NCBI GenBank assembly: GCA_026989395.1 | Contig: JALSJK010000159.1 | Span: 1-42,368, forward strand | DNA length: 42,368 nucleotides | Source of the DNA: Methylomonas sp. | GTDB taxonomy: Bacteria; Pseudomonadota; Gammaproteobacteria; Methylococcales; Methylomonadaceae | Reading direction: 5' to 3' | Shown: in pieces, positions 2,581 to 7,830 of the stretch | How positions within the stretch are numbered: the first letter of the stretch is position 1 | How the letters are laid out: each line of letters begins with the position of its first letter | Notes under the pieces: model-generated | Database searches by the model: none | What the model was told of the DNA's origin: nothing | The model's input: only the letters and a program-made list of their open reading frames with translations | Program-made: the position numbers and the translations under genes

Positions 2581-4083
2581 TTATGTTCTCGCCGCTCTCG
2601 AAACTTTATCGAAAGGTTCGGGAAATGCCATAACGGCATTGGTTTCTTGCCGTAACTTGTCCAGCAAAGTGTGATCAAACATTTGCCTAAGCTCTTCTCT
2701 GGTCTGATAGGTATCGGCATACAGTGCCTGAAAACCACCTAAATCCCTGACAAATTTTTCCAGCTTCCTTGTCGTGGTTTTTGCCTGATAATTCTCTACC
2801 CTCGGTTCGCCATAAATACCAATATCAACAAACATTTGCTCATCTTTTGTTGGATTGACCATGCCCCGGACGGGCGTTTCAAAAACTTTCATCGGACAAA
2901 GCCATAAGGGATAATAATCAACATCTTTGTGGAAAGTTTCTAAAGATTGACCCAGACTACTGATTGGCACCAGAAAATCCTGGTCCATGTGGTAAGTGTC
3001 ATAAAGCTCATGGATTGCTTCGGTTTCTGAAAGCTTGAGCAGAGAAATATCCGGCGGCGACATCCAGCCCAACAAATACCGAAACCAGGGCTGATTGCCA
3101 AATGGAATAATCTGTTCCATTTCCCAGAAAAAAGAACGGGTATGACGATGATAATAATGACGCAACGGTATCCATTCTTCATCTGGTACATTTTTTACAA
3201 GAAACGATCTGACATGTTCATAAAACCAAGGTTTCCAGAAATGATTAATGGCATTTTCATGTTTCCAAGCTGATACGGAGTCAGAAAAATGCCCCAACAT
3301 CAAAACCCCTTCCTGTTCGGAAAACAATAACCCTTCAACAAAATCATAAGCCCTTCTGAAAGGTTTGTTGGTTTCATCAGTAAAACGCTGGATAAATTCA
3401 TCTCTTGATTTGAATGGCAAATAAGTCAAATGTACATATTTATTAGCAGGAATAATAGCCAGTTCTGCACAAACCAAAAACCCCAGAGAACCATAAGACC
3501 AGGGAATGGCATAAAAAATTTCTGCATTTTCATCTGGCGAACATTTCACTAATTCACCATCCGCAGTAACAATTTCAAAGCTTTTACAGATATGCTGAAA
3601 TAAGCCATATTTATGAGAACTTGATTCGATGCCAAAACCATTCACCAGACCACCAACAGTCAGCGCATCCAGTTCCGGTACCACGGCCAGCGTCCAACCC
3701 AAAGGATTCAATGCGGCAGTAATCTGTCCCATATTGACCATCGGCTCAACGCGAACGGTGCGTTTGTCTTTATCAATTTCTAAAATATCCTGCAAATTGG
3801 TGTTGATTTGGTAATGTGTTTTTTTATAGTTTCCCTGCTTTAAAGACATTGCCTGCCAACCCGGTCTTGCCGTACACATCGGTACTTTTCCGCCGGTTTC
3901 TGTCATCCAGGCTTTAACTTGCTCCTGCACCTTGGCTACTTTTTCAGGATGCTTATCCGGTGCACTGTTTAACCAGAACACCAGACGATTTCTGGCACTC
4001 ATCCAGGCTTTGAAAATTAAAGATGCGGGTAAAATAAATACAACAACGAAAATTCCGCGGTATTTAATCAAAAAATCAAGCAT
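2581..4083 (-). CDS. Delta(24)-sterol reductase, DHCR24/seladin-1 family
   Basis: This FAD-dependent oxidoreductase is predicted to reduce the C-24 double bond of the sterol side chain. It has 500 residues; human DHCR24 has 516. The match to the animal enzyme (from memory) covers the whole length: an N-terminal membrane anchor (residues 10-25), the FAD-binding part with VRVEPMVNMGQITA, LTVGGLVNGFGIESSSHK and YGLFQHIC, then PLRHYYHRHTRSFFWE, PFGNQPWFRYLLGWM and the C-terminal YGEPRVENY and LYADTYQTREE. The ATG at 4083 is preceded by GGGAGA at good spacing. It is the last gene of the lysS-CYP51-NTF2-DHCR24 run, 12 bp after its neighbour. Type I methanotroph sterols have saturated side chains, which fits this role. 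Such high similarity to the eukaryotic enzyme is unusual for a bacterium. A general FAD-linked oxidase is the alternative, but the sequence is far too specific for that. Confidence 0.92.
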   Translation of the reverse strand: MLDFLIKYRGIFVVVFILPASLIFKAWMSARNRLVFWLNSAPDKHPEKVAKVQEQVKAWMTETGGKVPMCTARPGWQAMSLKQGNYKKTHYQINTNLQDILEIDKDKRTVRVEPMVNMGQITAALNPLGWTLAVVPELDALTVGGLVNGFGIESSSHKYGLFQHICKSFEIVTADGELVKCSPDENAEIFYAIPWSYGSLGFLVCAELAIIPANKYVHLTYLPFKSRDEFIQRFTDETNKPFRRAYDFVEGLLFSEQEGVLMLGHFSDSVSAWKHENAINHFWKPWFYEHVRSFLVKNVPDEEWIPLRHYYHRHTRSFFWEMEQIIPFGNQPWFRYLLGWMSPPDISLLKLSETEAIHELYDTYHMDQDFLVPISSLGQSLETFHKDVDYYPLWLCPMKVFETPVRGMVNPTKDEQMFVDIGIYGEPRVENYQAKTTTRKLEKFVRDLGGFQALYADTYQTREELRQMFDHTLLDKLRQETNAVMAFPEPFDKVSRAART

Positions 4084-4095
4084 CGGTTCTCCCTA

Positions 4096-4698
4096 TTATC
4101 GTCCTAACAGTGCGATGCGTACCATTGACAAGCCCCCTTTAATCCTTTTTAACAATCCTGGGTTTTCCCGAAGCCGTTCATGTCCCGGTAACAATTGACC
4201 TTTAGCCAAACGACTGATTTTCTTTTTCACTGCCGGATCCAGCTTGCCATCTGCCGCCAACTCAAACAACAGGGCTTTGACATTACCTAAATCAAAAAAA
4301 TCACGCTGCCAGTTCCATTTAAAATCACCAGCATAGCGGAACCAGGAACCGCCAATACCTTCCACTTCGTAATTGGTGCCATCTTCACGTTTTGCAGGAG
4401 CAACTTGTTTCCAAAAACCAATCACCTCGCCTTGCTTTTCGTCAATCAAAATCCGATGATAGGGGTAGCGCCACTCTTCAAAGCCTTCCATTTGCACACC
4501 TAATGCCCACTCTTCAATCTGCTTTCTGCCGCGAGCGACAAATTCTTCATTCGGCCCCATATTCCAGCGATATTCTGCATCATCGGTGTACATGGCACCC
4601 AGATATTTTGGCCAGTTGCCTTCTTTTTCAGCATTACGATTAGCGGCAAGCCAACGCTCTACCATTTCTTCCAGTTCGGCCCTCGGGTACTGTGCCAT
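4096..4698 (-). CDS. NTF2/SnoaL-fold protein in sterol cluster, function unknown
   Basis: A 200-residue protein. Residues 1-140 look like an NTF2/SnoaL-type alpha+beta cone: an N-terminal helix (ELEEMVERWLAANRNAEKEG), then MYTDDAEYRWNMGPNEEFVARG, a central VIGFWKQVAPA strand and the aromatic GGSWFRYAGDFKWNWQRDFFD strand. The last 60 residues form a basic, amphipathic extension (VKKKISRLAKG, LLKRIKGGLSMVRIALLGR) that could bind membrane. The fold includes ketosteroid isomerases, dehydratases and cyclases, but I cannot assign a catalytic set. It lies between CYP51 and DHCR24 with 12-bp gaps on both sides, so it is very likely a sterol-pathway component: isomerase, carrier or assembly factor (inference). 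GAGAG precedes the ATG. Confidence 0.8.
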   Translation of the reverse strand: MAQYPRAELEEMVERWLAANRNAEKEGNWPKYLGAMYTDDAEYRWNMGPNEEFVARGRKQIEEWALGVQMEGFEEWRYPYHRILIDEKQGEVIGFWKQVAPAKREDGTNYEVEGIGGSWFRYAGDFKWNWQRDFFDLGNVKALLFELAADGKLDPAVKKKISRLAKGQLLPGHERLRENPGLLKRIKGGLSMVRIALLGR

Positions 4699-4710: not shown

Positions 4711-6318
4711 TTATTTAGTTTCTATTTTTATTGCTTTTGTTGGACAGTATTTTTCTGCCATTTTTGCTTTTTGTAACAGCTCTTGTGGTGGATTTTCCTG
4801 TAACACTGTTAAAATCCCTTTATCATCCACCTGGAAAATTTCCGGCGCTTCAGTCATGCAGGTTGCATGCCCCTGACACAAGTCGTAATCCACTCTTACC
4901 TGAAAAGACTTAATTGTTTGTTCCGAAACTGGTTGCGTTTTTGCTTCTGACTGCTGGCTTGCTACTTTTTCAGCAGTAGCTTCTCTCTTCCGATACCGGA
5001 CCAAACACGGCTCTTTAGGTTGCACCACCATTTGCTCAAAATCATCCTGGTAAACCTCGGGTTGACTTACCAGTTCAAACGTATAATTTCTTAGCAAGAA
5101 ACTGAAAATAGCCTTGATTTGCAACATGGCAAAGGCATTACCGCTGCATTTATGACGGCCACCACCAAAAGCAATCCAGCTAAATGGAATCTTGTCCTCC
5201 TGGCGATCTGGATTGTAACGGTCTGGATCAAAAACTTCCGGATTTGGAAAAATTTCAGGAATTCGATGCGATACGCGTGGCGAGGTACAAACATATTTAC
5301 CCGCTTTAATCGTATAATCTTTAAACTTCAGATCTTTCATCACCTTTCTGATCAAAAATATCAGTGGTGGATGCAAACGCAGGGTTTCCTTGATGACATT
5401 TTCCAGTTTATTGGCTTGTCTGAGATCCTGAAACGTCACCTCACCATCTGCTCCAAACAAATCTTCCAGTTCTTCAATAACTGATTTTAATATATCTGGC
5501 CGCTTTGATAACTCGATCAGCACCCAAGAAGCCGTTCCGGCCGTGGTGTGATGACCGGCAAAAATTGCGCCGACCAACATGCCAGTAATTTCATGCGCAG
5601 AAAGACTGCTTCCGTCATCATAGCGCGCATCAATCAGCATCTGAAAAGCATCTTCACTTTTTTCAGATTTGTTGGCCCGCTTGGCAATAATTTCAGTGAC
5701 CAGTTCTTCAATCCTGACTCTGGCCCTATCTCTGCGGCGAAAAACCGGCAAAGGTAAGTACGGGAAAACAAATGCCAGTGGATTGATGCCTTTTTCCAGA
5801 TCATGATAAATTCTGGAAAACTCCTCGTTTAATTCATAGCGAAATTCATGCCCCAATAAACAGTGGCTGGAGGTATAAATCGTCAGCTGTTTCATAAACT
5901 CCAACAGATCAATCTCACCCACCTCGCCCCAATCTTTGGTCATTTCCTCAACTTCACCGGCAATCACTTGTGCATAGGTGCGCATCGGCTTGTCCCGCAA
6001 CACCGGCATCAACATTTTTAATTGCTGATCCTTTTTATGTTGCGGCGCATCAAAAACCACACCCTTGCCAAAAATTGGCGTCATGATTTTATAGGCTGCG
6101 CTTTGGTCTAATTGCTCATCCGGAGCACGAAAAAAAGCCTCATTGGCTTCAGGCCCGGTCATTAACACCATTTCCTGATGGAACATGCGAAACTCACCAA
6201 TTTCACCCAGTTTTTCACGAAGTTTCATCATATATTGAAATGGGTTTTTTCCGAATTGCAGCATATGGCCAAGCAATGGCAAAGCGCCAGGCATTTTAGG
6301 CGGGACTTTTTCTGTCAT
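4711..6318 (-). CDS. Sterol 14alpha-demethylase-ferredoxin fusion (CYP51FX type)
   Basis: CYP51 removes the 14alpha-methyl group of lanosterol-type sterols by three oxidations. This 535-residue protein is a fusion. The P450 domain (about 1-446) has the I-helix motif AGHHTTAG (254-261), ExxR as ETLR (311-314) and the haem loop FGGGRHKCSG with Cys391. A Ser/Gln/Thr-rich linker (447-471) leads to a C-terminal 3Fe-4S-type ferredoxin with CQGHATC (Cys481, Cys487) and Cys525 in KYCPTKAI. The same fusion is known from Methylococcus capsulatus; it supplies the P450 with its own electron carrier. There is no membrane anchor. The gene begins only 6 bp after the lysS stop with a weak ribosome site, so it is probably cotranscribed with and possibly coupled to lysS. 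NTF2-fold and DHCR24 genes follow. Confidence 0.95.
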   Translation of the reverse strand: MTEKVPPKMPGALPLLGHMLQFGKNPFQYMMKLREKLGEIGEFRMFHQEMVLMTGPEANEAFFRAPDEQLDQSAAYKIMTPIFGKGVVFDAPQHKKDQQLKMLMPVLRDKPMRTYAQVIAGEVEEMTKDWGEVGEIDLLEFMKQLTIYTSSHCLLGHEFRYELNEEFSRIYHDLEKGINPLAFVFPYLPLPVFRRRDRARVRIEELVTEIIAKRANKSEKSEDAFQMLIDARYDDGSSLSAHEITGMLVGAIFAGHHTTAGTASWVLIELSKRPDILKSVIEELEDLFGADGEVTFQDLRQANKLENVIKETLRLHPPLIFLIRKVMKDLKFKDYTIKAGKYVCTSPRVSHRIPEIFPNPEVFDPDRYNPDRQEDKIPFSWIAFGGGRHKCSGNAFAMLQIKAIFSFLLRNYTFELVSQPEVYQDDFEQMVVQPKEPCLVRYRKREATAEKVASQQSEAKTQPVSEQTIKSFQVRVDYDLCQGHATCMTEAPEIFQVDDKGILTVLQENPPQELLQKAKMAEKYCPTKAIKIETK

Positions 6319-6324
6319 CTTGTA

Positions 6325-7830
6325 TTAATTGTTTTTGTTTTGTGGCCGCATATGAGGAAATAATAATACATCCCTGATTGAAGGCGAATCAGTAAACAGC
6401 ATAACTAAGCGGTCAATACCAATCCCTTCGCCCGCAGTTGGCGGCATCCCATGTTCCAGGGCAACGATATAATCTGCATCATAATGCATGGCCTCATCAT
6501 CACCGGCTTCTTTTTCTTCAACTTGTTTTCTGAATCGCTCTGCCTGATCTTCAGCATCATTTAACTCAGTAAAACCATTGGCAATTTCCCGGCCACCAAC
6601 AAAAAACTCAAAACGATCGGTCACGTGTGGATCCTGGTCATTTCGTCTTGCCAATGGCGACACTTCGACAGGATAAGCAGTAATAAATGTTGGATTCATC
6701 AGCCGATTTTCGACAGTTTTTTCGAAAATCTCGATTTGCACCTTGCCCAATCCATAACTTTCCTTAATTGGGATTCCCAGTTTTTCCGCTACTTTCACAG
6801 CAGCATCCCGATTGTTTATATCAGCTTCAGTTAGGTTCTGATTAAAATGCAAAATGGATTCAACAACCGTCATTCTATCGAATGGCTTACCAAAATCATA
6901 AACTTCGCCTTGATAATTTAGCATCGTTGACCCGACCACTTCTTCAGCCAGACCACGCAGCATTTGTTCAGTTAAATCCATTAAATCATGATATTCCGCA
7001 TAAGCCTGATAAAATTCCAGCATGGTGAATTCCGGATTATGTCGCGTTGACAGGCCTTCATTTCGGAAGTTTCGGTTGATCTCATATACTCTTTCAAAAC
7101 CGCCAACAACCAGCCTTTTTAAATACAATTCCGGGGCGATTCGCAAATACAACCCCATATCCAGAGCGTTATGATGAGTGGTAAAAGGTCTAGCTGTAGC
7201 ACCGCCTGGAATCACCTGCATCATGGGCGTTTCTACTTCCATAAACTGGCGCTGATCCAAAAACCGGCGAATAAAACTGACAATTTTTGAACGAATCACA
7301 AAAGTGTTTCTTGATTCGTCGCTCATAATCAAATCAAGATATCGCTGCCGATATTTGATTTCCTGATCGGCAATGCCATGAAATTTTTCCGGCAATGGCC
7401 GCAGTGCCTTAGTCAACAGGCGAATATCATCCACCTTGACACTTAACTCACCCACTTTGGTTTTAAATAAAGTCCCTTCGGCACCGATAATATCGCCAAT
7501 ATCCCATTTTTTAAATTGTTCGTTATAAAACCCTTCAGGCAAGGTATCACGTGTGACATAAAGCTGAATTTTTCCCGCCATATCCTGAATGTGACAAAAA
7601 CTGGCTTTACCCATGATTCGACGAGTCATCATGCGACCGGCAATTTTTACCCGAACTGGCTCAGCCTCTAGCTCTTCCTTGGTTTTTTCACCATATTCAG
7701 CAATCAATTCACCGGTTACCACATTGCGTCGAAAATCGGTCGGGAAAGCCACACCTTCTTCTCTCAGGTTTTTTAATTTTTCCCGTCGCTGCCTGATTTG
7801 TTCCTGTTCGTCCTGGTCAATTTCTGTCAT
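6325..7830 (-). CDS. lysS: Lysyl-tRNA synthetase, class II
   Basis: Charges tRNA-Lys in the cytoplasm. The 501 residues match the class II enzyme: an N-terminal OB-fold anticodon domain (about 60-160, with [18 protein letters not shown]), class II motif 1 around [17 protein letters not shown], motif 2 [18 protein letters not shown], and motif 3 [21 protein letters not shown] near the C-terminus. It follows prfB in the order known from E. coli but with a 256-bp gap that contains a large inverted repeat. Three sterol genes sit immediately downstream with no obvious terminator between, an unusual association. The ribosome site before ATG 7830 is weak. Confidence 0.97.

Follow-up and report, generated by a model that had tools for sequence, protein, structure and literature searches.

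Homologues of DHCR24, the delta-24 sterol reductase, were listed for the methanotrophs Methylococcus, Methylobacter and Methylomicrobium in 2016, and among these Methylococcales the presence of the gene matches C-24-saturated sterols (Wei et al., PMC4919349). Methylobacter luteus has DHCR24 and only C-24-saturated sterols, while Methylosarcina lacus lacks the gene and has C-24-unsaturated sterols only (PMC4919349). A DHCR24 has also been annotated in Methyloprofundus (PMC8788690). Among myxobacteria, Enhygromyxa salina carries a canonical C-24 reductase, and others reduce C-24 with Bsr, a different enzyme of the geranylgeranyl reductase (GGR) family (PMC12004948). Further, a methanotroph protein of the NTF2 superfamily, often adjoining the CYP51-ferredoxin (CYP51-Fdx) gene, was described in 2026 as 8,14-Bsr, which converts 4,4-dimethylcholesta-8,14,24-trienol into the 8(14),24-dienol (PMC13277303). 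Bacterial sterol biosynthesis bears on the reading of steranes in old rocks and on the source of the eukaryotic pathway. As bacterial DHCR24 was reported in 2016, the gene described here adds a member to an established family, in gene surroundings of a familiar kind. What goes beyond the literature we found is one point, a second methanotroph DHCR24 lineage and its history of displacement; among the papers open to our search, which lacked many subscription titles, none treats methanotroph DHCR24 as two lineages.

The window, a stretch of 42,368 nucleotides deposited as Methylomonas sp. (contig JALSJK010000159.1), carries on its minus strand an open reading frame at 2581–4083 with an ATG start and 500 codons' worth of protein (500 aa). 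The reading frame, a FAD_binding_4 domain, homology, trees and the AlphaFold fold together make it very probably the gene of a membrane-anchored, FAD-dependent DHCR24 (delta-24 sterol reductase) from a Methyloprofundus-related type I methanotroph, belonging to a second lineage common to Methylothermaceae and missing from its nearest sterol-making kin. A plus-strand reading of the same interval was ruled out by 16 stops. The gene is single copy in the source genome (3.27 Mb, 182 contigs). Its base composition resembles that of the neighbouring genes and thus gives no sign of a recent event.

The first-pass annotation had described a full-length match to animal DHCR24 with two motif blocks and an N-terminal anchor, and these features were all recovered. 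BLASTP against human DHCR24, a provisional 516-aa reference written out, rather than taken from a database, after the window protein had been seen, gave 53% identity over 496 residues, which is essentially the whole length and far beyond chance; against Arabidopsis DWF1, also in a provisional version, identity was 39%. The blocks GIESSSHKYGLFQHIC and PLRHYYHRHTRS are both present. With the two provisional eukaryotic sequences the window protein shares full-length homology, the N-terminal anchor, the FAD domain and a YYHRHTR block, whereas the first ~20–25 residues of the human protein are missing from it. The membrane-anchor helix is predicted at residues 9–39 (3967–4059, minus strand) from the AlphaFold model and from hydropathy, which averages 2.1 across residues 10–28. 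The FAD-binding (PCMH-type) domain occupies residues 72–182 (3538–3870, minus strand; Pfam PF01565, E 6e-17). Human DHCR24 positions that we take, in a provisional numbering, to be altered in desmosterolosis are R94, R103, E191, N294, K306, Y471 and E480. Of these, R94, E191, N294, Y471 and E480 are conserved in the window protein; R103 is replaced by K and K306 by E, both at sites that vary among homologues, and Y507 is replaced by F. Conservation of R94, E191, N294 and Y471 speaks for the DHCR24 assignment, and the three replacements speak against it.

Domain searches name the protein less specifically. Pfam found FAD_binding_4 alone and NCBIfam only FAD oxidases, all of the latter below cut-off, with DprE1, GlcD and lactone oxidase among the sub-threshold matches; no DHCR24-specific model was among the Pfam and NCBIfam matches. 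Such results would also suit a general FAD-linked oxidase (VAO/PCMH) that resembles GlcD, DprE1 or lactone oxidases and whose substrate is no sterol but, for example, a polyprenyl or sugar compound. The same can be said of the nearest solved structures, since an AlphaFold model built with 39 homologues (pLDDT 88.7, pTM 0.88) was closest in the PDB to cytokinin oxidase and DprE1 (Foldseek E about 1e-18; TM 0.50–0.61 by query length). However, these structural matches share only 13–17% identity with the window protein, which in the tree falls within a single DHCR24 group (100/100 against the nearest FAD-oxidase family) across a branch of ~5 changes per site. The nearest oxidase family lacks the HRHTRS block, and among relatives the homologues of the window protein are limited to genomes with an oxidosqualene cyclase (OSC). 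A general oxidase is therefore very improbable. The first-pass annotation had named placement among general FAD-linked oxidases as the refuting outcome; the phylogeny was run and did not give it, so that membership of the family of the cholesterol-synthesis enzyme holds. The predicted fold is that of a VAO-type flavoenzyme plus an added N-terminal anchor helix; a sequence search of the PDB found no solved DHCR24 structure. No GGR domain was found in profile searches, in which all matches were of the VAO/PCMH type. The window protein thus differs in family from the Bsr of Myxococcota and Cyanobacteriota, a flavoprotein of the geranylgeranyl reductase family (PMC12004948), and its likeness to Bsr, as a flavoprotein with the same reaction, is a predicted one.

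The gene is the last of four that run along the minus strand in the order lysS, CYP51-ferredoxin, a 200-aa protein and DHCR24, with gaps of 6, 12 and 12 bp. The first, lysS (lysine--tRNA ligase, 6325–7830; TIGR00499 above cut-off), lies 6 bp upstream of CYP51 and opens what is apparently an operon and is itself no sterol gene; the same order of genes is seen in another locus (L064). The second (4711–6318, minus strand, 535 aa) encodes a fusion of the sterol 14-alpha-demethylase CYP51 with a ferredoxin (Pfam p450, E 3e-82, with Fer4_15/Fer4_13), and its C-terminal ferredoxin domain spans residues 474–532 (4723–4899, minus strand; Pfam PF13459, E 2e-11). It is 62–80% identical to the copies in other methanotroph sterol clusters. 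The earlier claim of linkage to a CYP51-ferredoxin gene is borne out by the P450 and Fer4 domains and by the tight 12-bp spacing. The earlier reading of bacterial C-24 sterol reduction is supported, as a prediction, by the DHCR24 clade, by the company of CYP51 and 8,14-Bsr, and by the confinement of relatives' DHCR24 copies to OSC genomes. Promoter-like matches around the operon were no commoner than in shuffled sequence, and terminator-like matches marked no clear operon boundary.

The 200-aa protein encoded between CYP51 and DHCR24 (4096–4698, minus strand), on which the first-pass annotation is silent, has SnoaL_2 as its only Pfam match, below cut-off, in keeping with an NTF2/SnoaL fold, and its gene is separated by 12 bp from the fused CYP51-ferredoxin. 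Six pocket residues of 8,14-Bsr have been probed; D133 and Y43 proved important, and so did an aromatic side chain in place of Y37 and Y78 (PMC13277303). All six of the M. capsulatus enzyme (Y37, Y43, Y78, Y80, D133 and D136) occur at identical positions in the window protein, and on this ground we assign it, with high confidence, as a putative 8,14-Bsr, the sterol 8,14-reductase/isomerase. It resembles the M. capsulatus enzyme (PMC13277303) in these residues and in its place beside CYP51-Fdx, with no notable difference, and is 67–68% identical to homologues of the second methanotroph family, the one holding M. capsulatus.

Genes for the earlier steps lie elsewhere in the genome. A cyclase on contig C18 (19126–21051) has the oxidosqualene-cyclase motif WPVADCTAE. 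The valine in this motif, placed by eye, corresponds to position 453 of the human enzyme, where valine marks a lanosterol synthase by the criterion quoted in PMC4919349. A squalene epoxidase (SE) gene is directly downstream of the cyclase gene; a second cyclase in the genome has the length of a hopene cyclase. Because a V453-type OSC and SE are both present, lanosterol is expected to be made and modified, and the organism should make sterols de novo. We infer the activity of the reductase, its cofactors and the order of the steps from the gene set, as follows. Squalene epoxidase and the OSC would yield lanosterol, which CYP51-ferredoxin would demethylate at C-14 to 4,4-dimethylcholesta-8,14,24-trienol. 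8,14-Bsr would turn the trienol into 4,4-dimethylcholesta-8(14),24-dienol, and DHCR24, with NADPH via FAD, would then saturate the side chain to give 4,4-dimethylcholest-8(14)-en-3-ol or C-4-demethylated products. The most likely role of the window DHCR24 is thus to reduce the C-24 double bond of sterols with the help of NADPH and FAD, leading to C-24-saturated 8(14)-sterols. No Rieske or SDR genes, which would be leads to SdmA/B, were found next to the M. capsulatus DHCR24.

The gene co-occurs with the cyclase. Among 61 genomes, the source genome and its relatives, DHCR24 was found in 15, an OSC-type cyclase in 20 and 8,14-Bsr in 18. An OSC was recognized by its motif at loci whose sequence was retrieved, and in six genomes from where the match lay or from the neighbouring genes. 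All DHCR24-positive relatives have OSC (15/15) and no OSC-negative genome has DHCR24 (0/41); 8,14-Bsr is likewise confined to OSC-positive relatives. Fisher tests against OSC, with shared ancestry ignored, gave p of 2e-10 for DHCR24 and 1e-13 for 8,14-Bsr. In other lineages a triterpene cyclase, mostly with the OSC motif, accompanies DHCR24 in 11 of 12 positive genomes. The exception is a Parachlamydiaceae MAG (G433, L113:8001-9479) with a DHCR24 homologue and no squalene/oxidosqualene cyclase match; its enzyme could act on host sterols, or the gene could be a binning artefact.

We scanned 84,980 genomes of bacteria and archaea and found 75 DHCR24-homologous loci; none was found in 2.9 million viral contigs. 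The copies of Methyloprofundus MAGs, mussel gill symbionts and Methylothermaceae are 72–84% identical to the window copy. Those of most other Methylococcales reach 46–53%, those of Bacteroidota, one Competibacteraceae and one Parachlamydiaceae MAG 47–51%, and a Streptosporangium homologue 37%. The annotated Methyloprofundus DHCR24 (PMC8788690) belongs to the window lineage (74–77% identity) but stands alone, apart from CYP51 and 8,14-Bsr. The DHCR24s of Methylococcus capsulatus (MCA1404) and Methylobacter luteus (MetluDRAFT_1263) resemble the window gene in family, order, length and company (OSC, CYP51-Fdx and 8,14-Bsr), yet they differ in sequence, at 48–50% identity, and belong to a separate 100/100 clade.

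Our careful DHCR24 tree was rooted on the nearest FAD-oxidase family, with eukaryotes represented by two provisional sequences and no myxobacterial DHCR24s. Two methanotroph clades came out of it, each at 100/100: the window lineage, whose stem measures 0.59 changes per site, and the common type. A single clade of all methanotroph DHCR24s was rejected by the AU test (p 0.0006, 56 rows), and again with fewer rows and also without the provisional sequences (p 0.02); the rejection rests partly on the common methanotroph type grouping with Bacteroidota. The order in which the window clade, the common methanotroph type, Bacteroidota and the eukaryote-like group branch depends on a deciding branch with support of 31–36. 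A quick tree that joined the window clade to eukaryotes at 100 was set aside, as removal of the longest branches made this support disappear.

The window type may have come from a eukaryote, for example via marine hosts, before it moved from one to the other of Methyloprofundus and Methylothermaceae. The window protein is as close to the provisional human sequence (53%) as to any other bacterial type, mussel gill symbionts are among its relatives, and the AU test did not reject a grouping of the window clade with human (p 0.36–0.55), the tree joining it to human and the Parachlamydiaceae being retained at p 0.545. Grouping with other bacteria was not rejected either, the deciding deep branch is the weakly supported one above, the window clade sits on a stem of its own, and the eukaryotic sampling is two provisional sequences. 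We consider a eukaryotic source unlikely, at perhaps the weight of a secondary hypothesis.

Comparison of pathway genes bears on the same history independently of any eukaryotic sequence. Against Methylobacter-type clusters, the window genome shows identities of 75–77% for CYP51, 82–85% for 8,14-Bsr, 67–68% for OSC and 62–64% for SE, but only 48–50% for DHCR24, the range also found against other methanotroph DHCR24s. Against Methylothermaceae the relation crosses over, with OSC at 52–53%, SE at 46% and DHCR24 at 72%. In the OSC tree the window genome falls among the members of its own family (support 99). As OSC follows the family tree and DHCR24 does not, DHCR24 would have been replaced or regained by transfer, and the cross-over is best explained if DHCR24 moved between the Methyloprofundus lineage and Methylothermaceae or if both received it from one donor. 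Ancient paralogy, in which one duplication followed by differential loss left the two methanotroph types without any transfer, would account for both types occurring within one order. Against it, no examined genome holds both types and each DHCR24-positive relative gives one match; the same genomes share CYP51, 8,14-Bsr and OSC at 62–85% within the window's family, and the window type is 72% identical between two families whose OSCs are 53% identical. We judge paralogy improbable.

On balance we favour, with some reserve, two independently acquired methanotroph DHCR24 lineages. A transfer of its own, possibly from a eukaryote, would have brought the window's lineage into Methyloprofundus and Methylothermaceae, where it would have replaced the ancestral methanotroph enzyme of an otherwise vertically inherited pathway; in mussel symbionts it would now be in the course of loss. 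The second lineage probably replaced, or re-supplied, the type found in other sterol-making Methylococcales. Exchange of a terminal enzyme in a pathway otherwise left in place would mean that bacterial sterol pathways are assembled piecewise, and that the phylogeny of one gene, such as OSC, does not tell the history of the others. Two genomes of the window genome's family (G020 and G021) lack DHCR24 and have an OSC near to the one in the window genus, a pattern consistent with loss of DHCR24 before the window lineage regained the gene.

DHCR24 is intact in the Methyloprofundus MAGs examined. In the gill symbiont of Bathymodiolus japonicus (L134:8001-11041) it is broken after residue ~452 by ~1.5 kb with a DDE transposase, and in that of B. 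platifrons (L074:3229-4728) it is frameshifted; draft assembly error is possible in both. Such disruption would be in keeping with a sharing of the work between symbiont and mussel, the animal finishing the sterol.

Elsewhere, the Methylothermaceae genome G047 (L073:5041-17396) has its DHCR24-OSC-SE set inside an apparent biotin operon (bioB, bioF, bioH ... bioC). Its OSC motif carries an isoleucine at position 453, and no match to CYP51-Fdx or 8,14-Bsr was found in that genome, which may make C-14-methylated, C-24-reduced sterols. In Methylocaldum sp. 14B (L078:9766-10509), a phage-type integrase gene adjoins a compact SE-OSC-8,14-Bsr-CYP51-DHCR24 cluster, which suggests a mobile sterol island.
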